Shown here: positions 6,609 through 25,265 of the stretch, piece by piece | Position numbering within the stretch: position 1 is the first letter of the stretch | Layout of the letters: every line of letters begins with the position of its first letter | Assembly (NCBI RefSeq): GCF_022095675.1 | Contig: NZ_JAHYSG010000148.1 | Span: 1 to 26,813 of the forward strand | DNA from: Dactylosporangium sp. AC04546 | GTDB taxonomy: Bacteria > Actinomycetota > Actinomycetes > Mycobacteriales > Micromonosporaceae | Direction of reading: 5' to 3' | DNA length: 26,813 nt | Notes under the pieces: generated by a model | What the model was told of the DNA's origin: nothing | The model's input: only the letters and a program-made list of their open reading frames with translations | Database searches by the model: none | Program-made: the position numbers and the translations under genes

Positions 6609-8713
<2,105 letters not shown>

Positions 8714-8714
<1 letters not shown>

Positions 8715-10915
8715 TGGTCCCGTCCGCGACCTACCGGGTCCAGGTCCGGCCGGACTTCGGCCTCGACGCCACCGCCGGGCTCGCCGGCTACCTGCGCGAC
8801 CTCGGCGTGAGCCATCTCTATTCGGCGCCGCTGCTGGCCGCGACGCCCGGCTCGCCGCACGGCTACGACGTGGTCGACCCGCGGATCGTCAACCCCGAGC
8901 TGGGCGGGGCGGCCGCCCTCGACCGGCTGGTGTCTGCGTTGCGCACGCAGGGACTGGGGCTGGTCGCCGACATCGTGCCGAACCACGTGGGCCTGTTCCA
9001 GCCGGCGGCGAACCCGATGTGGTGGGACGTGCTCAGACGCGGCCCGGCCAGCGACTACGCGGGTTGGTTCGACATCGACTGGACCGCCGGCCCGATCGTG
9101 ATCCCCGTCCTCGGGACGCCCGCGCTCGACGAGCTGCGCATCGACCACGGCGAGCTGCGCTACTACGAGCATCGCTTCCCCATCGCCGACGGCACCGGCG
9201 GCGGCACACCGCAGGAGGTGCACGACCGGCAGCACTACCGCCTCGTGCACTGGCGGGAGGGCAACGAGCGGCTGAACTACCGGCGGTTCTTCGCCGTCAC
9301 CGAGCTGGCCGGGGTGCGGGTCGAGGACCCGGCGGTCTTCGACGCCACCCACACCGAGATCCTGCGCTGGGTGCGCGAGAGCCTGGTCGACGGCATCCGG
9401 GTCGACCACCCTGACGGCCTGCGCGACCCCGTCGGCTACCTGGCCCACCTCCGCGCGGAGGCGCCGGGCATGTGGCTGGTGGTCGAGAAGATCCTGGAGG
9501 ACGGCGAGCCGCTGCCGCCGTGGCCGGTCGACGGCACCACCGGCTACGACGCCCTCGCCGAGGTCTGCGGCCTGTTCATCGCGGCCGCCGACGACCCCGG
9601 GGACTGGGCCGAGGAGGCGCACACGCAGAAGCTCGACGTGACCCGGCGCCTCTTCCCGGCCGAGCTGCACCGCCTCGGCCGGATCAGCCACCCGGACTGG
9701 GAGGAGCGCCTCGCCGAGCTGGCCTCCTGCTTCGAGGTGTACCGCACGTACCTGCCCTATGGCCGCGAGTACCTCGACCGCGCCCTCGGCGAGGCCCGCC
9801 GCCGCCGGCCCGACCTCGACTTCGACCCGCTGCTGCCCCGCCTGACCGACCCGGCCGACGAGCTGTGCGTGCGGTTCCAGCAGCTCACCGGCGCCGTCAT
9901 GGCCAAAGGCGTCGAGGACACGGCGATGTACCGCTGGAACCGCTGCATCGCCCTGAACGAGGTCGGCGGCGACCCGTCCCGGTTCGGCGTGCCACCGTCG
10001 GAGTTCCACACGGCCGCGGCCCGCCGGCAGGCGGAGTGGCCGGCGACGATGACCACGCTGTCGACCCACGACACCAAGCGCGGCGAGGACGTGCGGGCCC
10101 GCCTGGCCGTGCTCACCGAGCTGCCGGACGAGTGGGCGGCCGCGCTCACGCGCTGGCGGGCGGCGGCGCCGCTGCCCGACCCGTCGTTCGAGGACCTGTT
10201 CTGGCAGACGGTCGCCGGCGCCTGGCCGATCGAGCGGGACCGGCTCAGCGCCTACTTCGTCAAGGCGGCCCGGGAGGCGAACCGCTCGACGTCGTGGAGC
10301 GACCCGTCGGCGCCGTTCGAGGCGGCGGTCGAGGCCGCCCTCGACCGCGTCTTCGGCGAGCTGCGCGACGACGTGGCCGCGTTCGCCACCGCGATCACCC
10401 CGTTCGGCTGGAGCAACGCGCTGGGCCAGAAGCTGCTCCAGCTCACGATGCCCGGGATTCCCGACGTGTACCAGGGCAGCGAGCTGTGGGAGAACTCGCT
10501 GGTCGATCCGGACAACCGGCGGCCGGTCGACTTCGCCGAACGGCGCGACCTGCTGACGGCCCTCGACAGCAGCCTGGTGCTGCCGCCGATCGACGTGTCC
10601 GGGGCGGCGAAGCTGCTCGTCGTCAGCCGGGCGCTGCGGCTGCGGCGGGACCGGCCGGAGCTGTTCCGGGGCTACGCGCCGGTGCCGGCGGCCGGGCCCG
10701 CGGCCGGGCACGCCGTCGCGTTCGACCGGGGCGGGGTGGTGGCCGTGGCGACGCGGCTGCCGGTGACCCTCGCCATCGCGGGCGGGTGGGGCGACACGGC
10801 GCTGGAGCTGCCGCCCGGCGCCTGGCACGACGTCCTGACCGACCGGCCCGTCATCGCGCCCGAGCTGAGCGCGCTGCTCGACACGTATCCGGTGGCACTG
10901 CTGGTAGGGGGCTGA
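8714..10915 (+). CDS. treY: Malto-oligosyltrehalose synthase TreY (GH13)
   Basis: The 733-residue product starts with SATYRVQVRPDFGLDATAGL, the characteristic opening of TreY. The barrel motifs are VADIVPNHVGL, DGIRVDHPDGLRDP (nucleophile Asp, about residue 230), WLVVEKILEDGEPLP (Glu, about 257) and TLSTHDTKRGEDVRARL (His-Asp, about 452). The VMAKGVEDTAMYRWNR segment is also typical of TreY. The enzyme isomerises the reducing-end alpha-1,4 bond of a maltodextrin into alpha,alpha-1,1, making maltooligosyltrehalose, the substrate of TreZ. It is cytoplasmic. The ATG overlaps the glgX stop by one base and the stop lies two bases before the treZ GTG. Confidence 0.96.
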
Positions 10916-10917
10916 GC

Positions 10918-12636
10918 GTGGAGTTCCGGGTGTGGGCGCCGTCGGCGCGGCGGGTCGCGCTGCGGCTCGACGGGCGGACGGTGCCGATGTCCGCCGCGGA
11001 CGGTGGCTGGTACACGGCGACCGACGAGGCGGCCGGGCACGGCAGCGACTACGGCTTCCTGCTCGACGCCCCGGGCTCCCCGGGCAACGAGCCGCCGCTG
11101 CCCGATCCGCGCTCCCGCTGGCAGCCCGGCGGCGTGCACGGGCTGAGCCGGGTCTACGACCATGCCCGGTTCGCGTGGGGCGACGCGGCCTGGACCGGCC
11201 GGCAGCTGCCCGGCAGCGTCGTCTACGAGCTGCACGTCGGCACGTTCACCCCGCAAGGGACGTTCGACGCCGCCGCCGAGCGCCTGCCGCACCTGGTGGA
11301 GCTCGGCGTGGACCTGGTCGAGCTGCTGCCCGTCAACACGTTCAACGGCGAGTGGAACTGGGGCTACGACGGCGTCGGCTGGCACGCGGTGCAGGAGTCC
11401 TACGGCGGGCCCGACGGGCTCAAGCGGTTCGTCGACGCCGCGCACCGGGCCGGCCTCGGGGTGATCATCGACGCGGTCTACAACCACTTCGGCCCGTCCG
11501 GCGCCTACACCCCGCGGTTCGGCCCGTACCTGTCCAGCGGCGCGAACACGTGGGGCCGGTCGCTGAACCTCGACGAGGCCGACTCGGGCGAGGTCCGCCG
11601 GTTCATCATCGACAGCGCGCTGCAGTGGCTGCGCGACTACCACGCCGACGGGCTGCGGCTCGACGCCGTCCACGCGCTGGTCGACCGCGGCGCCACGCAC
11701 CTGCTGGAGGAGCTGGCCGTCGAGGTCGACGCGCTGTCGACGGCGCTCGGCCGGCCGCTGTCGCTGATCGCCGAGTCCGACCTCAACGACGCCAGGCTGG
11801 TCACGGCCCGGGAGGGCGGCGGCTACGGGCTGCACGCCCAGTGGGACGACGACGTCCACCACGCGCTGCACGCCATGCTCACCGGCGAGCGCCAGGGGTA
11901 CTACGGCGACTTCGGCTCTTTGACGTGCCTGGCCACCGTCTGGCAGGAGGCGTTCTGGCACGCCGGGACCTGGTCGTCGTTCCGGCGGCGGGTCCACGGC
12001 CGGCCGGTCGACCGGGCCCGCATCCCCGGCCACCGGTTCGTGGTGTGCCTGCAGAACCACGACCAGATCGGCAACCGCGCCACCGGCGACCGGCTCACCG
12101 CGTCGCTCTCGCCCGGCCTGCTGCGCGTCGGCGCGACCCTGCTGCTGACCTCCCCGTTCACGCCGATGCTGTTCATGGGTGAGGAGTTCGGCGCGCGCAC
12201 CCCGTGGCAGTTCTTCACCAGCCACCCGGAGCCCGAGCTGGCGGCGGCGGTCGCCGCGGGCCGCCGGTGCGAGTTCGCGGAGCACGGCTGGCCGCCCGGC
12301 GACGTGCCGGACCCGCAGGATCCGCAGACGTTCCAGCGCTCCAAGCTGGACTGGGCGGCCCAGGACCAGGACATGCTGGCGCTGTACCGCTCGCTGATCC
12401 GGCTGCGCAAGGACGTCGCGGATCTGTCGGACCCGCGCCTCGACCGGGTCCGGGTCGTCCACGACGACGGGGTGCTGCTGATCTCGCGCGGGGCCTGCAC
12501 GGTGATCGCGAACCTGACGCCCGATCCGCGGACGCTGCCGCTGCCGGCCGAGCGCTTCCTGCTCGCGACCGACCCGGCCGCCGTCCTGCAGGGCGACTCC
12601 GTCACCGTACCGGGCGAGTCGGCGGTCATCCTGTGA
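10918..12636 (+). CDS. treZ: Malto-oligosyltrehalose trehalohydrolase TreZ (GH13_10)
   Basis: The 572-residue product begins with a CBM48-like beta domain (EFRVWAPSARRVALRLDG) and continues into a GH13 barrel. Motifs are LLPVNTFNGEWNWGYDGVGW and AVYNHFGPSGAY, DGLRLDAVHALVDRGATHLL with the nucleophile Asp (about residue 248), LIAESDLNDARLV with the catalytic Glu (about 284), and LQNHDQIGNRATGDRL with the His-Asp pair (about 380). FMGEEFGARTPWQFFTSH is a strong TreZ signature. The enzyme cuts the alpha-1,4 bond next to the trehalosyl end and releases free trehalose. The start is GTG 10918, two bases after the treY stop, so it is coupled to treY. No treS, glgB or glgE is present in the window, so the other actinobacterial trehalose/glucan genes must lie elsewhere if they exist. 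Confidence 0.96.
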   Translation: MEFRVWAPSARRVALRLDGRTVPMSAADGGWYTATDEAAGHGSDYGFLLDAPGSPGNEPPLPDPRSRWQPGGVHGLSRVYDHARFAWGDAAWTGRQLPGSVVYELHVGTFTPQGTFDAAAERLPHLVELGVDLVELLPVNTFNGEWNWGYDGVGWHAVQESYGGPDGLKRFVDAAHRAGLGVIIDAVYNHFGPSGAYTPRFGPYLSSGANTWGRSLNLDEADSGEVRRFIIDSALQWLRDYHADGLRLDAVHALVDRGATHLLEELAVEVDALSTALGRPLSLIAESDLNDARLVTAREGGGYGLHAQWDDDVHHALHAMLTGERQGYYGDFGSLTCLATVWQEAFWHAGTWSSFRRRVHGRPVDRARIPGHRFVVCLQNHDQIGNRATGDRLTASLSPGLLRVGATLLLTSPFTPMLFMGEEFGARTPWQFFTSHPEPELAAAVAAGRRCEFAEHGWPPGDVPDPQDPQTFQRSKLDWAAQDQDMLALYRSLIRLRKDVADLSDPRLDRVRVVHDDGVLLISRGACTVIANLTPDPRTLPLPAERFLLATDPAAVLQGDSVTVPGESAVIL

Positions 12637-17359: not shown

Positions 17360-18247
17360 CTACAGGCGCGGCGCGTCGTCCGCGGAGTCGTCGGCGAGGG
17401 CGGCCGGGCCCACGATCAGCGGGTCCGGGGTACCGACGAGATCGTCGTCCTTGTTGTCGTAGTCGAACCGGCTGAGGACGTGCCGCATCGCCTCCAGCCG
17501 GGCGCGCTTCTTGTCGTTGCTCTTCACCACGGTCCACGGCGCGTCGGCGGTGTCGGTGTAGAAGAACATCGCCTCCTTCGCCTCGGTGTAGTCGTCCCAC
17601 TTGTCGAGCGAGGCGAGGTCCATCGGCGACAGCTTCCACTGCCGGACGGGGTCGACCTGCCGGATGAGGAACCGGGTGTGCTGCTCGTTGCGCGACACCG
17701 AGAACCAGAACTTGACCAGCTTGATCCCGGACCGGACCAGCATCCGCTCCAGCTCGGGGGCCTGGCGCATGAACTCCAGGTACTCGGCGCGGGTGGCGAA
17801 GCCCATGACCCGCTCGACGCCGGCCCGGTTGTACCAGGACCGGTCGAACAGCACGATCTCGCCGGCCGCCGGGAGATGGCGGATATACCGCTGGAAGTAC
17901 CACTGGGTGGACTCCCGCTCGCTGGGCTTCTCCAGCGCGATCACCCGGCAGCCGCGCGGGTTGAGGTGCTCCATGAACCGCTTGATGGTGCCGCCCTTGC
18001 CGGCGGCGTCACGGCCCTCGAAGAGCACGACCAGCCGGTCACCCCGCGCCTTGATCGTGTTCTGCAGCTTGAGCAGCTCGATCTGCAGGAGACGCTTGAC
18101 CCGGTCGTACTCGTCGCGGGTCATCCGCTTGTCGTAGGGGTAGTCCTCCCGCCAGGTGTCGACCGGCTGCCCGTCCTTGCGCAGCAGCACGGGGTCGTCG
18201 TCGTAGTCGTCCTCGACCAGATAGTCGTCGAGCGAGAGGTCGGCCAT
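17360..18247 (-). CDS. ppk2: Polyphosphate kinase 2 family protein
   Basis: The 295-residue product is a complete PPK2. The Walker A motif GRDAAGKGGTIK is at about residues 78-89, the Walker B-like motif FDRSWYNRAGVERV begins at about 134, and the lid-region segments are KFWFSVSRNEQHTRF and RQWKLSPMDLASLDKWDDY. PPK2 enzymes transfer phosphate between polyphosphate and nucleoside mono- or diphosphates, mostly making NTP from polyphosphate; whether this one prefers ADP or GDP cannot be read from the sequence. The N-terminus is very acidic (DDYLVEDDYDDD) and lies outside the kinase core. ATG 18247 has no strong ribosome site. The gene is the first of the ppk2-DUF427-MEDS/STAS-malQ operon and is separated from the vWA gene behind it by 58 bases. 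Confidence 0.95.
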   Translation of the reverse strand: MADLSLDDYLVEDDYDDDPVLLRKDGQPVDTWREDYPYDKRMTRDEYDRVKRLLQIELLKLQNTIKARGDRLVVLFEGRDAAGKGGTIKRFMEHLNPRGCRVIALEKPSERESTQWYFQRYIRHLPAAGEIVLFDRSWYNRAGVERVMGFATRAEYLEFMRQAPELERMLVRSGIKLVKFWFSVSRNEQHTRFLIRQVDPVRQWKLSPMDLASLDKWDDYTEAKEAMFFYTDTADAPWTVVKSNDKKRARLEAMRHVLSRFDYDNKDDDLVGTPDPLIVGPAALADDSADDAPRL

Positions 18248-18305: not shown

Positions 18306-19922
18306 TTACTGGTACCCGCGGATCTCCTTGAAGGCGGCGGGCAGCGCGCCGGTGCGGGCGTCGAACGACCGGCCGCCGGTGAGCGTGGCCACCTGCTGCA
18401 TCTCGGCGACGTTGCCCTCGCCGAACAGGATCGTGAACACCGGGATCTTCGGCAGCTGCGGCAGGCGGGCCTGGAACGCGGCCAGGTCGGCGCCGACGGT
18501 CCGTTCGCCGTCGGTGAGCAGCACGATCGAGGTGAACCGGTCGGGCTCGGCGGCGATCAGCGGCGCGGCCTGGGCGTAGGCGGCGAGCAGCGCGTCGTAG
18601 ATCGCGGTGTCGCCACCCGGGGCGAGCCCGCCGGCGTAGGCGCGGATCTGCTCGAGCGTGGGCTGCACGTCGCCCTCGGGCACGTCGAACCGGCGGGTCT
18701 GGCCGGGCTTCGTGCTGAACGGGATCATGAGCACCTGCTCGCGGCCGTTGAACCGGGTGAACTGGCCGGCCAGGCTGGTGTCGGCGCCGGTGAGCCCGGT
18801 CAGCGCGGCCTTGAGCCCGGCGATGCGCTCACCCTTCATCGACCCGGACACGTCGAGCACGTAGATCGTGCGGGCCGGCTTGCGCAGGCTGTCGCCGAAC
18901 GCGCCGATGAGGGCGTTGGCGGCCTCCAGCTTGCCGGGGAACGGCAGCTCGGGCAGCGCCCCGCCGCCGGCCGGGCCGAACTGCTCACCGAGCTTGACGT
19001 TCGGCACGCCGGGCCGCCGCAGGGTCTTGGTCATGATCTCCTGCTGCACGCTGGGCCGGCGCAGGTAGTCGGCGACCGCCGCGTAGTTGTTCTTGGTCTG
19101 TTCGGAGACGCCGTTCAGCAGCGTCAGCGGGTAGTCGGCGCTGACCACGCCGTCGGACGGGTACACGACGGTCATCGGCTCGGCCAGCTTGCCCGACGCG
19201 TTCAGCGACAGGATCACCGACTCGTAGTTGACCAGCCCGTCGACGGGCTTGCCCTCCTGCTGCTGCTTGAGGAACGCGTCGGCGAGCCACCCGGAGGAGC
19301 CGGCGGTGAGGTTCTGCCCGGCGAAGAACGCCCGCAACCGCGGGGTGAGCGGCGCGATCTGCTCGGCGGTGAGCGCGGCGCCGGTGCCGGCGAGCGCGGC
19401 CGCGATGCCGACCAGGGCCGAGAAGCCGGAGTTGGAGCTGGCCGGGTTGGTCATGCCGTAGCTGAACCGGTGCTCGCCCGCGGCGACGGCGATCTCGCTC
19501 CAGGTCGGGCGGTGCTCGGTCCAGCCGAGCTGCTGCGCGACGGAGCGGCGCAGCCCGAGCACGACCGGAGAGGTGGCGACCTTGGTGGCGGTGCCGATCT
19601 TGTCGCCGGCGCCGGGGTGGAGCTGGAGGTAGCGGTTGCTGGCGAACCAGATCGCGTCGTACTGCTGGGCCGCGGTGCCGTTGACGACGGTCTCGACGCC
19701 CTCGAGGGTGCCGGTCGTGCTCAGCTTGACGGTGACCCCGGTCGCGGCGGCGGCCGCGTCCAGGATCGGCTGGAGGTCGGCGAGCTCGCTGCCGGCGAGG
19801 ACGCGCAGCACGCCGCTGCCCTTGAGGTACGGGCCCTCGCCCTGCTCGGGCGTGGCCTTCTTGTCGCTGGTGCAGGCGGTGAGCGCGACGAGCGCGAGCG
19901 CGACCCACGTGAAGCGCCTCAT
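18306..19922 (-). CDS. Lipoprotein with solute-binding-like domain and C-terminal von Willebrand A domain (intact MIDAS)
   Basis: The product has 538 residues. A lipoprotein signal peptide ends in the lipobox LTAC (Cys17), so it is anchored on the outside of the membrane. Residues about 36-300 resemble a ModA/SBP-type periplasmic binding fold (GVLRVLAGSELADLQPIL, YDAIWFASNRYL, ATSPVVLGLRRSVA, RFSYGMTNPASSNSGFSALVGIAAAL, GLVNYESVIL). Residues about 350-535 are a vWA domain with a complete metal-ion-dependent adhesion site: Asp357-Val-Ser359-Gly-Ser361, GGDTAIYDALL (Thr439) and LLTDGERT (Asp471). Proteins of this composition occur in actinobacteria without a settled function; I infer a surface protein that binds a ligand and makes metal-dependent protein contacts. 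Its ATG overlaps the stop of the upstream gene (ATGA, 19919-19922), so the two are coupled. Confidence 0.88.
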   Translation of the reverse strand: MRRFTWVALALVALTACTSDKKATPEQGEGPYLKGSGVLRVLAGSELADLQPILDAAAAATGVTVKLSTTGTLEGVETVVNGTAAQQYDAIWFASNRYLQLHPGAGDKIGTATKVATSPVVLGLRRSVAQQLGWTEHRPTWSEIAVAAGEHRFSYGMTNPASSNSGFSALVGIAAALAGTGAALTAEQIAPLTPRLRAFFAGQNLTAGSSGWLADAFLKQQQEGKPVDGLVNYESVILSLNASGKLAEPMTVVYPSDGVVSADYPLTLLNGVSEQTKNNYAAVADYLRRPSVQQEIMTKTLRRPGVPNVKLGEQFGPAGGGALPELPFPGKLEAANALIGAFGDSLRKPARTIYVLDVSGSMKGERIAGLKAALTGLTGADTSLAGQFTRFNGREQVLMIPFSTKPGQTRRFDVPEGDVQPTLEQIRAYAGGLAPGGDTAIYDALLAAYAQAAPLIAAEPDRFTSIVLLTDGERTVGADLAAFQARLPQLPKIPVFTILFGEGNVAEMQQVATLTGGRSFDARTGALPAAFKEIRGYQ

Positions 19923-20962
19923 GCGAGCTTCTCCTCGACCTTGGTCAGCAGGGTGTGCAGGGTGGCCTGGTCCGGGGCCGGGACGGCGCCCACGATGAGC
20001 TCCGGCAGCCGGGCGTCGCCGGGGCGCACCTTGTCCAGCACCGGGCGGGACACCGCCGGGTCCAGGGCCCGGAAGCCGTGCTCGGCGGCGAGGCGCTGCA
20101 GGTCCGGGTCGGTCTGGAGCAGCTTCGCGACCTTCACGCCGGCCTCGGTGAACGGCACGACGGTGTGGGCGCACATCACCGTCGGCGTCGGGTAGATCAG
20201 CGTCGTCGTCTCCTTGATGCCGCTGTGGAGGGCGTAGTCGACGAACTGGGCCTCGTAGATGAGCACCAGGGGCGCGAAGTTGCTGCCCTGCAGCAGGTAC
20301 TTCTCGAACGGCTCGCCACTGGTGGTGTCGACGGCGCCCTGGTCGGCGAACAGCTGCGCGACCTCGGCCACGTCGCCCTTGGTGACGCTGTCGAGCAGCG
20401 CCGCGTACATGGCGGCCGAGTTCGAGTCCTGCGGGTGCGTCGTTGCGACCAGCACCTTCCGCTCGGCCGGGTAGGCCGCGTTGCCGGGGATCGCCTTCCA
20501 CAGCAGGCCGGCGCGGTGCCGCTCGACGAGCTTGGCCAGGTCGAGCCGCCAGACGCCGGTGCCGTCGCGGGCGGCCAGGCCGGCGGTCTGCAGCACGTCG
20601 ACGATCGGGGTGAAGGTGGCGACCGCGAGCGGCGAGCTGAACACGGTGACCGGCTCGCCGGCCGGCGCGCGACGCGCGGCGAGCTCCTGCGCGGCGGCCA
20701 GGCTGCCGGGAAACGCCAGGTCGTAGCCGGCGAGCCGGTTCGCCATGTCGCGGGAGCCGGACGGGTCGGCGCGGTAGGTGAAGCCCTGCTTGTCGAACGC
20801 GGCGCGCACCGCCGGGTCGGCGAAGAAGCCGAGCTTCTCCGAGCCGACCAGCAGCGTCACCTGCGTCGTGCCGCCCCGCGCCCTGCCGACGAGGTGCCCG
20901 ACGAGGGCGCCCGCGACCACCAGCGCCACCACGGCGACGATCAGCACTCCGGTGCGTCTCAC
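19919..20962 (-). CDS. Membrane-anchored solute-binding-like protein
   Basis: The product is about 347 residues. The N-terminal RRTGVLIVAVVALVVAGALV segment is a membrane anchor or uncleaved signal, and no lipobox Cys follows it. The remainder resembles a periplasmic binding fold: VTLLVGSEKLGFFADPAVRAAF, GSRDMANRLAGYDLAFPGS, AVATFTPIVDVL, a region centred on EKYLLQGSNFAPLVLIYEAQ, and LIYPTPTVMCAHTVVPF. No vWA domain is present. I use GTG 20962 as start because it places the basic RR pair directly before the hydrophobic stretch; an in-frame TTG at 20989 has no ribosome site. The gene is co-translated with the SBP-vWA lipoprotein and divergent from the third SBP-vWA gene. No permease or ATPase is nearby, so a transport role is doubtful. 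Confidence 0.8.
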   Translation of the reverse strand: MRRTGVLIVAVVALVVAGALVGHLVGRARGGTTQVTLLVGSEKLGFFADPAVRAAFDKQGFTYRADPSGSRDMANRLAGYDLAFPGSLAAAQELAARRAPAGEPVTVFSSPLAVATFTPIVDVLQTAGLAARDGTGVWRLDLAKLVERHRAGLLWKAIPGNAAYPAERKVLVATTHPQDSNSAAMYAALLDSVTKGDVAEVAQLFADQGAVDTTSGEPFEKYLLQGSNFAPLVLIYEAQFVDYALHSGIKETTTLIYPTPTVMCAHTVVPFTEAGVKVAKLLQTDPDLQRLAAEHGFRALDPAVSRPVLDKVRPGDARLPELIVGAVPAPDQATLHTLLTKVEEKLA

Positions 20963-21030
20963 GACCCCGATTCTGGCCCATGGCCGCAACCACCATCCAT
21001 ATATCTGCTGTTCAGTGGCCGTTCATGTGA

Positions 21031-21041
21031 TCCACTGTGGA
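21031..21041. promoter_or_regulatory. Palindrome in the divergent SBP/vWA intergenic region
   Basis: TCCACTGTGGA is a perfect 11-bp inverted repeat (5-bp arms around one base) about 70 bases upstream of the 20962 start and 200 bases from the 21237 start. It is a possible operator for the divergent genes. The rest of 20963-21236 (274 bases) contains no gene. Confidence 0.3.
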
Positions 21042-21169
21042 CGATCGCCGGCCCCCGGCCGTAGCCGGCTCCGCACGCTGGGTATACGGCGGAGCGCCAG
21101 CAGTCGGAGAACGTGCTGGCCGAACGGGCCGGGGTGGCCGCCGGACGGCCGAGAGGGGCCGGAATCCGC

Positions 21170-21197
21170 TGCGCTCGATGACATACTTGCGCTCGAT
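21170..21197 (+). promoter_or_regulatory. Direct repeat and extended -10 element before the 21237 gene
   Basis: TGCGCTCGAT occurs twice (21170-21179 and 21188-21197), 18 bases apart. Between the copies lies TGACATACT (21179-21187), an extended -10 (TG-n-CATACT) that would place a transcription start about 40 bases before ATG 21237. There is no convincing -35 hexamer, so an activator binding the repeats is possible. Confidence 0.35.
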
Positions 21198-21236
21198 CAA
21201 ACACCCCCCTTCGAAACCTCTGGCGGACGGTCGACC

Positions 21237-22892
21237 ATGGGCAAGCATCAGGCCGGGAGCCTGGGGAGCCGCGGCGTGGGCATGGTGCTGCGTGGGCTGG
21301 TGCTGGTGCTCGCGGTCGGCCTCGTGGCCGGCGCGGGCTGGTACGTGCTGCGCGGCAAGCCGACCGAGGCCGACGGCGCGGCGTGCCCCACCACGCTGCA
21401 CGTCGTCGCCGCGGCGTCGATCTCCAACGTCGTCTCGGCCGCCGGGCGCACACTGCGCGCCGGCGACGACTGCATCCTGGTCGACACCGTCAGCGCCGAC
21501 GGGCGCTCGGGCGCGTCCCAGCTCAGCCAGACCCCGGTCGACGTGTGGATCCCCGACGACACCGCCTGGACGGCGATCGCGCCGCCGCAGTTCCTGGCCG
21601 AGAAGGGCAACCTCAACGCGTACAGCGTGATCGCCAGCAGCCCGATCTACATGGTCACCGACCCGGCCACCGGGGACCGGATCAAGGCCGCGGGCGACAG
21701 CTGGCTGGGGCTGGCGAACCTGCTGAACAACCGCGCCTCCGGCGTGCGGCTCGTGGTGCGCAACCCGGCCCTCAACGGCGACGGCATGGTCGCGGCCGGC
21801 GCCGTCGGCGAGGCCGTCTGGATCGACAAGGGCATGGACGCCTCGTCCCTGGCCCTGGCCAACATGCTCCCGGTCACCCGGACCGTCAACGTCGACCTGT
21901 CCGCCGCGCCGAGCGCGGCCGGCGAGGTGGGCCTGATCCCCGAGTACGCGCTGCTCAGCACGCTGCGACTGGCGCAGGGCGACCGCCGCTACATCGTCGG
22001 CGCCGACCACACGGCGCTGCTGCGCTACACCTGGCTCCCCACCGCCGCCGCGGTCAAGAACGCGAAGCGGGCGGCGGCGCTCAAGCGGCTGTACAGCGCG
22101 TTCAGCTCGCAGGAGGGCAGCCGCGCGCTGGCCGCGGCCGGGCTGCGCGGCCCGGACAACATCCGCCCGATCTACGACGGCGCGAACGCGCTGCCCGAGC
22201 CGACCGCGAAGCCGTTCGACGTGCTCGCGCCGCACCACGTCCAGCACATCTTCGCGACGTGGGACCCGGAGGACCGGCGCAGCAACCTGCTCATCATCGC
22301 GGACCTCGCCACCGGCGGCTCCTCCCCCACGCCCGGCAGCTCGTCCTCTCCCGGCGGCAAGCAGGCACCGGTCGACGTGGTCAAGCAGGGCTGCCGCCAG
22401 CTCGCCGACCTGATGCCGATCGGTTCGCGGCTGGGCCTGTGGGAGGTCGCGCCCGGCCAGCCCGGGTACCGCAAGATCGTGCCCACCGACCGCCTGGACG
22501 ACGCGACCCGGGCCCAGTTCGGCACGTCGGTGAAGTCCCTCGCCGCGCACCGCGCGGGCCCGGGCCTGCTGGACGCGATCGTGGCGGGCTACCAGTCGGT
22601 CCGCGACGACTGGCACGACGACATGTTCAACCAGGTCTTCATCCTGACCGACGACCAGAACAAGGACAGCGCCAACGCGGCCGCGGTGACCGCGATGGTC
22701 CAGAAGCTCACGGCGCTGAAGGACCCGAACAAGCCGGTGACGATCAGCGTCGTGGTCCTCAACAAGAAGGACGCCGCGGAGTCGCTGAAGGCGTCCCTGA
22801 AGCCGATGGACGCGTACGTCGACAACGCCACCAGCTCCGACGACGTGCAGGCCGCCTTCATCCACGTCGTCGCCGGCGGCCTGCACGAGTAG
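21237..22892 (+). CDS. Membrane-anchored SBP-like / degenerate von Willebrand A protein
   Basis: The product has 551 residues. A short cytoplasmic N-terminus is followed by one membrane segment at residues 16-36 (MVLRGLVLVLAVGLVAGAGW). Residues about 50-310 resemble a solute-binding fold (TTLHVVAAASISNVVSAAGR, VDVWIPDDTAW, ASSPIYMVTDPATG, NPALNGDGMVAAGAV). Residues about 348-550 have the layout of a vWA domain, but the metal-site motif reads Asp356-Leu-Ala-Thr-Gly instead of DxSxS. The loop after it is a Ser/Pro/Gly-rich insert, and the distal motif is ILTDDQNKD rather than TDG. The domain is therefore probably unable to hold a standard MIDAS metal. It is a paralogue in architecture of the 18306-19922 lipoprotein on the other side of the divergent region. 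The start context (GGACGG upstream) is weak. Confidence 0.85.
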   Translation: MGKHQAGSLGSRGVGMVLRGLVLVLAVGLVAGAGWYVLRGKPTEADGAACPTTLHVVAAASISNVVSAAGRTLRAGDDCILVDTVSADGRSGASQLSQTPVDVWIPDDTAWTAIAPPQFLAEKGNLNAYSVIASSPIYMVTDPATGDRIKAAGDSWLGLANLLNNRASGVRLVVRNPALNGDGMVAAGAVGEAVWIDKGMDASSLALANMLPVTRTVNVDLSAAPSAAGEVGLIPEYALLSTLRLAQGDRRYIVGADHTALLRYTWLPTAAAVKNAKRAAALKRLYSAFSSQEGSRALAAAGLRGPDNIRPIYDGANALPEPTAKPFDVLAPHHVQHIFATWDPEDRRSNLLIIADLATGGSSPTPGSSSSPGGKQAPVDVVKQGCRQLADLMPIGSRLGLWEVAPGQPGYRKIVPTDRLDDATRAQFGTSVKSLAAHRAGPGLLDAIVAGYQSVRDDWHDDMFNQVFILTDDQNKDSANAAAVTAMVQKLTALKDPNKPVTISVVVLNKKDAAESLKASLKPMDAYVDNATSSDDVQAAFIHVVAGGLHE

Positions 22893-24340: not shown

Positions 24341-25228
24341 CTAACCGCACCCCAGCGCGTCCTTGAGGGCCGTGAGGTTGGCCCGCATCACCGTGAAGTA
24401 GGTGGCGTCACCCTCGACGCCCTCGATCGGGTCGAGGACCGCGGCCTTCGCGCCGATCTCCTTCGCCACCGTCTCCGAGAGCTTCGGGCTGACCAGCGCC
24501 TCGAAGAAGATCGTCGTCACGCCCTTCTCCTTGGCCAGCTGCGCCACCTCCGCGACCCGCTGCGGGCTGGGCTCCTCCTCGGGGTCCAGGCCCGAGATCG
24601 GCACCTGGTTGAGCCCGTACCGCGCCGCGAGGTAGCCGAAGGCCGCGTGACTGGTGACGATGTCGCGCCGCTGGCAGGTCTTGAGACCGGTCTGGTACTC
24701 CTGGTCGAGCTGCTGCAGCTCACCCTGCAGCTGGGCCGCGCGGGTCGTGATGCCGGCCGTGTCGGCGCCGTCGACCTGCTGCAGCCGCTCGCTGAGCTTG
24801 CCCACGATCACCGACAGCCGCAGGGGGTCGAGCCAGACGTGCGGGTCCTTGCCGTGCTCCTCGTCACCACTGCCCTCCTTGAGCGCCTCGACGGTGGCGA
24901 CGTCGAACGCCTTGCCCTTCGCCTCCTGCGCCACCGCCTCGTCGACGGCCGGCTGGAACCCCGAGAGGTACACGACCAGGTCGGCGTCCTCGATCGTGGC
25001 CAGCTGGCCGGGCTGGAGCTCGAGGTCGTGCGGCTCGGCGCCGGCCTTGGTGAGGTTGGTGACGCGGACGCCGTCGCCGCCGACCCGCTCGCTGATGAAC
25101 TGGAGGGGGTAGAACGCCGCCACGACCTGCGTACCTCCACCGCCACCGGCCTGCTCGTCACCGCAAGCACCGACCCCGGCCACCACCGCAAGGGCGGTCA
25201 GGCCGGCCACAATCCCACGTCGCAACAT
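24341..25228 (-). CDS. znuA: Zinc/manganese ABC transporter substrate-binding lipoprotein (ZnuA-type)
   Basis: The product has 295 residues. The signal peptide ends in the lipobox GVGAC (Cys22). The cluster A-I metal-binding fold is clear: VVAAFYPLQFISERVGG, the first His ligand in AGAEPHDLELQP, a short charged loop (GSGDEEHGKDPH) with the second His in DPHVWLDPL, the third in IVTSHAAFGYLAARYGL, and the late acidic ligand region VLDPIEGVE. The family delivers Zn or Mn to an ABC permease; the Zur-like box upstream argues for zinc. No permease or ATPase gene is adjacent, so partners must be encoded elsewhere. ATG 25228 is taken as start. No ribosome site lies at normal spacing, but the promoter predicts a transcript starting next to this ATG (leaderless). 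Confidence 0.92.
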   Translation of the reverse strand: MLRRGIVAGLTALAVVAGVGACGDEQAGGGGGTQVVAAFYPLQFISERVGGDGVRVTNLTKAGAEPHDLELQPGQLATIEDADLVVYLSGFQPAVDEAVAQEAKGKAFDVATVEALKEGSGDEEHGKDPHVWLDPLRLSVIVGKLSERLQQVDGADTAGITTRAAQLQGELQQLDQEYQTGLKTCQRRDIVTSHAAFGYLAARYGLNQVPISGLDPEEEPSPQRVAEVAQLAKEKGVTTIFFEALVSPKLSETVAKEIGAKAAVLDPIEGVEGDATYFTVMRANLTALKDALGCG

Positions 25229-25235
25229 GCCGACG

Positions 25236-25265
25236 AGTGTGTCCCTTGATGACAATCATTGTCAA
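25236..25265 (-). promoter_or_regulatory. Promoter with overlapping Zur-like box
   Basis: TGACAATCATTGTCA (25250-25264) is a perfect 15-bp palindrome (7-bp arms, one central base), matching the TGAxAAT-x-ATTxTCA pattern of actinobacterial Zur sites. On the minus strand it overlaps a consensus -35 TTGACA (25260-25265), followed after 18 bases by CACACT (25236-25241). Transcription would start at about 25229, directly at the ATG. Zur binding with zinc would block the -35 region. Confidence 0.8.

Follow-up and report, generated by a model that had tools for sequence, protein, structure and literature searches.

A membrane-tethered pair of binding proteins in Dactylosporangium as the probable outer half of an envelope-stress cassette of the TelA type

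The closest described counterparts of the locus considered here are the toxic-anion resistance operons of TelA (PF05816), namely lmo1966-lmo1967 in Listeria, xpaC-yaaN in Bacillus and orf53-telA-telB-telC in Lactococcus. As far as the available parts of the cited reports go, TelA has been connected with tellurite and with envelope antibiotics, nisin among them, by a mechanism stated to be unknown (PMC12791056), and disruption of lmo1967 increases the susceptibility to nisin 4-fold and to tellurite 2-fold (PMC12791056, with which PMC11765107 agrees). In the same partial sources the sigma-W regulon includes xpaC-yaaN and yceC-yceH (PMC3498285), TelA has been put forward as part of sub-membrane structures (PMC7824862), and the Lactococcus locus is tied to tellurite (PMC13109727). 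These portions of text, from which the Firmicutes operons are known here rather than from their gene neighbourhoods, mention no gene for a binding protein (SBP) or for an SBP joined to a von Willebrand A (vWA) domain, whereas relatives of the two such genes treated below lie directly beside TelA.

The window, by which we mean the whole analysed stretch of 26,813 nucleotides from Dactylosporangium sp. AC04546, contains 21 called genes, all of which were scanned with Pfam. On balance, two of them, A and B, probably represent the extracytoplasmic, receptor half of an envelope-stress cassette of the TelA type, which this genome would have retained after losing the cytoplasmic half. The features of the locus are as follows.

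17360-18247, minus strand: PPK2-family polyphosphate kinase, on the same strand as B and 58 bp after it
18306-19922, minus strand: gene B, lipoprotein with SBP and vWA domains, 538 aa
19919-19922, minus strand: ATGA overlap of the A stop and the B start, 4 bp
19919-20962, minus strand: gene A, signal-anchored protein with a stand-alone type II SBP fold, 347 aa, GTG start
20963-21236, no strand: intergenic stretch separating the divergent genes A and C, 274 bp
21237-22892, plus strand: gene C, SBP_bac_11 protein with a TM anchor and an unproven vWA domain, 551 aa

Gene A starts with GTG at 20962 and stops at 19919. Its product has a single hydrophobic stretch from about residue 7 (helix 2-28 in the model), and structure prediction assigns it a type II periplasmic-binding fold (pLDDT 93); the Pfam scan of A returned no family, and its profile matched no PDB sequence at E values up to 1. 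Gene B combines an SBP domain (about residues 36-350) with a vWA domain (about 346-538). Its lipobox is present, with a nearly invariant Cys17, its Pfam matches to VWA and SBP_bac_8 both lie below the curated cut-offs, and the structure model is confident for both folds (pLDDT 90). A and the SBP domain of B are homologous (hhalign 99%, E 5.7e-18). The fold of A and of the N-terminal half of B is that of the sulfate-, thiamine- and ferric-type type II periplasmic binding proteins, from which the two differ in being membrane-anchored, in the fusion of B to vWA and in having no ABC partner in the window. The preliminary description of the locus had proposed that a TM-anchored SBP-like protein is co-translated with an SBP-vWA lipoprotein; both architectures and the 4-bp overlap were recovered, and the overlap of the A stop with the B start makes the coupling itself plausible.

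SBP-vWA proteins with the same domain order as B are widespread in the family, and the window genome has five matches to B and four to C, B and C themselves included; the B subgroup is distinguished from the others by its pairing with A and, in relatives, with TelA. The vWA domain of B has the complete MIDAS motif (DxSxS...T...D), consisting of D357, S359, S361, T439 and D471, all of which are unchanged in each of the 20 B proteins aligned, and in fold it is close to known vWA domains, among them that of the inter-alpha-inhibitor heavy chain. The adjacent MoxR AAA+ ATPase that defines the MoxR-vWA chaperone pair is missing, no AAA family being found among the 21 called window genes. The B gene of Phytohabitans suffuscus (L039:10336-11930) reads as two frames.

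A surface adhesion or wall-contact device, whose MIDAS-type vWA domain would bind a partner in the wall or outside the cell while the SBP domains serve as ligand-free scaffolds, would account for the invariant MIDAS and for the fold of the vWA domain. It is nevertheless quite improbable, since Pfam identifies no wall-anchoring or repeat domain and since the short lobe-edge motifs GSE, GS/GT, SP, SNS and YE, common to A and B, suggest that the pocket is used; these motifs may be ligand contacts. Two homologous binding domains tethered outside the membrane, of which one has a complete MIDAS, would fit a receptor in which the vWA domain responds to closure of the lobes.

Relatives of A numbered 269 in genome contigs, and the best 80 of these 269 were examined as named actinobacterial loci, with layouts assigned by tblastn. 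The layout A-TelA-B-m19 is present in 41 of the 80 loci, A-B in 9 (4 of them Dactylosporangium), A-B-m19 in 2 and A-TelA, cut by the contig end, in 1; in the remaining 27 there is no B near A, two of these (L107 and L148) ending within 350 bp after A. The gene clusters that recur near A are B (52 loci), TelA (42) and m19 (42), followed by the next cluster with 14. Four scanned TelA proteins of the cassette match PF05816 with E values from 1.7e-70 to 7.7e-89. The m19 protein, of about 200 aa, is anchored in the membrane by an N-terminal segment, and no Pfam family exceeded the cut-off in the members scanned. In a survey of 296 genomes of the class, A was detected in at least 42, TelA over the cut-off in at least 52 and both in at least 31, an association with a Fisher odds ratio of 31 (p 3e-19, uncorrected for phylogeny); the two genes are adjacent in 22 of these 31 genomes, as counted by eye. 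No description of an SBP or SBP-vWA protein with TelA was found in the accessible portions of the open literature, the 2012 survey of Ter systems (doi 10.1039/c2mb25239b) lying outside that scope, so that the four-gene cassette could already have been published.

A also occurs without B, as is evident from the 27 loci with no B nearby and from the genomes concerned: nine of the ten A-only genomes searched (six Nocardia, two Kribbella and one Sphaerisporangium) have no close B relative, the best E value being 4.1e-16 or weaker, compared with 4.8e-203 in the control L087. Nonomuraea guangzhouensis, with an A-only locus, has a B relative elsewhere in its genome (1.0e-190). In many Nocardia loci (e.g. 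L125:7013-8996) A stands alone near genes recognised from sequence as nusA-like and proS-like and near DUF4439 ferritin-like genes. In the 150 genomes of the window's own family that were surveyed for A, B and C, A occupies at least 48 places in at least 38 genomes, these genome counts being lower bounds from a limited number of scored candidates, and a listed B lies within 3 kb at 47 of the 48. The B rows of this count are 51 picked among the matches listed, and 'no B near' means no B among them.

The operon B'-XpaC-A'-TelA, a second and more distant layout, was recovered from 15 loci in 15 genomes, the XpaC and TelA families being checked in L063; in L074 the place of A' was labelled B by the best-hit rule. 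In this layout the relatives of A and B adjoin an XpaC-family protein (PF10112), the family that accompanies TelA in the Listeria and Bacillus operons. In the family survey TelA scored above the cut-off at 25 places, a weaker match being set aside: 18 are divergent, with B' within 6 kb in all 18 and A' within 3 kb in 15, and 7 are canonical, with neither B' nor A' nearby among the matches listed. When the profiles of the two TelA sets were compared directly, the probability was no more than 0.7%, although scanned members of both match PF05816. The comparison of m19 with XpaC reached 13.5% only, and they are therefore not called one family.

Three of the seven canonical TelA loci, all from Dactylosporangium, were read (L167-L169), and in each of them TelA forms one cluster with TerD genes, a shorter m19-like protein and what the sequence suggests is a TerC-like gene. 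These three congeners thus carry a cluster of the TerD/TerC/TelA (Ter) type, but A and B sit outside it. The shorter protein, which adjoins TelA (L167:6393-7971, also in L168 and L169), matches m19 only past the membrane segment, from profile positions 61-71 to 201. Its position beside TelA suggests that the nameless m19 domain is a general partner of TelA, and the combination of TelA and m19 domain in Ter clusters looks like a cytoplasmic half, to which A and B would be the outer half.

The window genome, listed as 99.75% complete with 11.54% contamination, yielded no match to TelA, a search in which 3 of 14 control genomes were matched, and none to XpaC. TerD likewise had 0 matches there, compared with 20, 8 and 18 in G044, G106 and G081, and m19 is absent from the window genome and from Dactylosporangium sucinum (G095), 10 of the 12 genomes searched being matched, 7 of them strongly. 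D. sucinum has no match to TelA or TerD either. In the window genome, A and B consequently have neither TelA beside them nor a membrane partner of the XpaC or m19 kind, as members of a TelA operon would, nor the TerD of a Ter system. A link to TelA-like genes, named in the preliminary description as an example of what a neighbourhood survey might find, holds in the relatives.

The position of the window's A was examined in a tree of 101 A proteins with six XpaC-type A' as outgroup; 4 loci yielded no usable A, 7 duplicates and 9 further XpaC-type loci were omitted by design, and layouts outside the 80 loci were assigned by hand. The window's A falls in a clade of 18 TelA-less rows (14 A-B and 4 A-B-m19; SH-aLRT 96), and this TelA-less clade of the window's family nests within TelA-bearing A-TelA-B-m19 rows. 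On the tree the TelA state requires five changes and the B state two. The simplest story would be that TelA was lost first, and then m19, in the window's lineage; because the outgroup is distant (branch 2.48) and the tree a quick one, we infer the direction, loss rather than gain of TelA, instead of reading it from the branching.

The lack of TelA, m19, XpaC and TerD matches in the window genome would also be expected if A-B were a decaying remnant after TelA loss. This is extremely unlikely, as the frames are intact, dN is well below dS between two congeners without TelA and TerD, and the A-B pair is retained across the family's TelA-less clade. Compared with D. sucinum, the NG86 estimates are dN 0.049 and dS 0.172 for A, dN 0.023 and dS 0.166 for B, and dN 0.044 and dS 0.255 for C, the dS values being rough at this G+C. 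A and B are under purifying selection, and debris was rejected as an explanation on these values. Together with the identities to D. sucinum (A 92%, B 96%, C 92%), this selection indicates that A, B and C are genes and not chance open reading frames.

In the fuller form, A-TelA-B-m19, A with its TM segment and B with its lipid would hold two homologous binding domains at the outside of the membrane. Binding of a ligand would bring the lobes together, and B could relay this closure through its metal-dependent vWA domain as a contact with A, with m19 or with the wall, while TelA and the cytoplasmic part of m19 would act at the inner face, m19 possibly passing the signal to TelA. In the window genome A-B would work without TelA, either via another membrane partner or alone as a ligand-gated complex of the outer surface. 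Ligand sensing, A-B contact and vWA output are presumed elements of this scheme, as would be a role in envelope or toxic-anion stress. More broadly, and as a possible rather than a probable reading, A-TelA-B-m19 could be an undescribed transmembrane stress sensor of Actinomycetes, with A and B as the outside receptor for TelA and with a TelA-free Dactylosporangium version that uses another partner. A conserved outside ligand-binding pair encoded with TelA offers a concrete, testable input and encourages us to ask which ligand is bound and whether the signal reaches TelA via m19. From the version that lacks TelA it seems that a genome can retain the outer half by itself, which provides a natural case of separation of function.

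A link to signalling is supported by a single case in Allocatelliglobosispora scoriae (L070:3963-7892), where a 1309-aa protein combines a NACHT NTPase, hydrophobic segments and then SBP and vWA domains, the B-type SBP-vWA part being 41% identical to the window's B. A second NACHT-SBP-vWA fusion was not found among 7995 scored candidates. PADLOC, run on A, B and C, gave no match.

The type II periplasmic-binding fold of A and B is also the fold of ABC importer binding proteins, and the two could in principle belong to an orphan importer with its permease and ATPase encoded elsewhere. The adjacent cognate permease and ATPase are missing: none of the 21 called window genes matched a permease, an ABC ATPase or a secretion family in Pfam, which bears out the preliminary description on this point. 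In the 80 loci only the B, TelA and m19 clusters recur in more than 14, and the transporter genes that were checked are lineage-specific and are not binding-protein-dependent ABC permeases. An iron-uptake set of FTR1 permease, imelysin and Dyp-peroxidase lies directly upstream of A-TelA-B-m19 in L123 (4468-7749), where the families were checked, and the same clusters precede the cassette in 11 loci from Planotetraspora and Microbispora. Nine loci, eight from Lentzea and one labelled Nocardia, have an ABC gene a few genes upstream whose membrane and ATPase domains are fused (checked in L085), and several loci from Saccharothrix have an upstream MFS gene (checked in L124). There may be a transport link in these lineages, but none of the genes recurs across lineages as TelA does. 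Since a signal-anchored binding protein accompanied by a second one fused to vWA would also be unusual for import, the orphan importer is considered unlikely, and sensing or assembly, which had been favoured over nutrient import from the outset, is the better fit for A-B as a unit of two proteins that has no transporter beside it in the window.

The preliminary description had counted gene C, as a divergent TM-anchored SBP-vWA protein, into a three-protein module. The divergent orientation, the anchor (a hydrophobic stretch starting at residue 14) and the SBP domain (SBP_bac_11, E 3.8e-9, over the cut-off) were all found, but the vWA domain was not: Pfam detects none in C, profile comparison of C with B gives a probability of 17%, and the DxSxS serines of the MIDAS are missing in six of six aligned C orthologues. 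In the family survey, relatives of C over 190 bits occupy 18 places, and A lies within 5 kb at five of them, all in Dactylosporangium. The 13 places without A within 5 kb comprise two in Dactylosporangium (G115 and G064) and 11 outside, and in 7 of the 13 genomes with C far from A there is no A match anywhere. C and A-B are separated by 2.8 Mb in the congener G115. In the congener G064 (locus L073) homologues of PPK2, C, an M1 peptidase and ZnuA stand together while A-B are absent there and A is absent from the genome; eight further C loci (L159-L166), taken from other genomes or from other places within the genus, have neither A nor B beside C. The three-protein composition is thus not supported, C lying beside A-B only inside Dactylosporangium, and the earlier proviso that the genes might not co-occur in other genomes proved true of C and untrue of A and B. 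The proposed SBP/vWA complex with A, B and C as its three proteins, for which the divergent arrangement kept in five genomes of the genus can be cited, is very unlikely given the 13 of 18 places without A, the A-free genomes among them, the absence of A-B beside C in G064 and the missing MIDAS serines. C was rejected as a member of the module on its 5 of 18 places with A, and looks like a mere neighbour outside the A-B unit.

The PPK2 gene is probably an incidental neighbour as well, since its homologue adjoins C in the congener that lacks A-B. Promoter and terminator scans of the locus found nothing, and no sigma-70-like site was found in the 274 bp between A and C. Elsewhere in the window, a further solitary binding protein, of the ZnuA metal-binding type, is encoded at 24341-25255, and the called window genes include neither ZnuB nor ZnuC. 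Three consecutive alpha-amylase-family genes occupy 6609-12636; the trio presumably resembles the treX-treY-treZ trehalose set.
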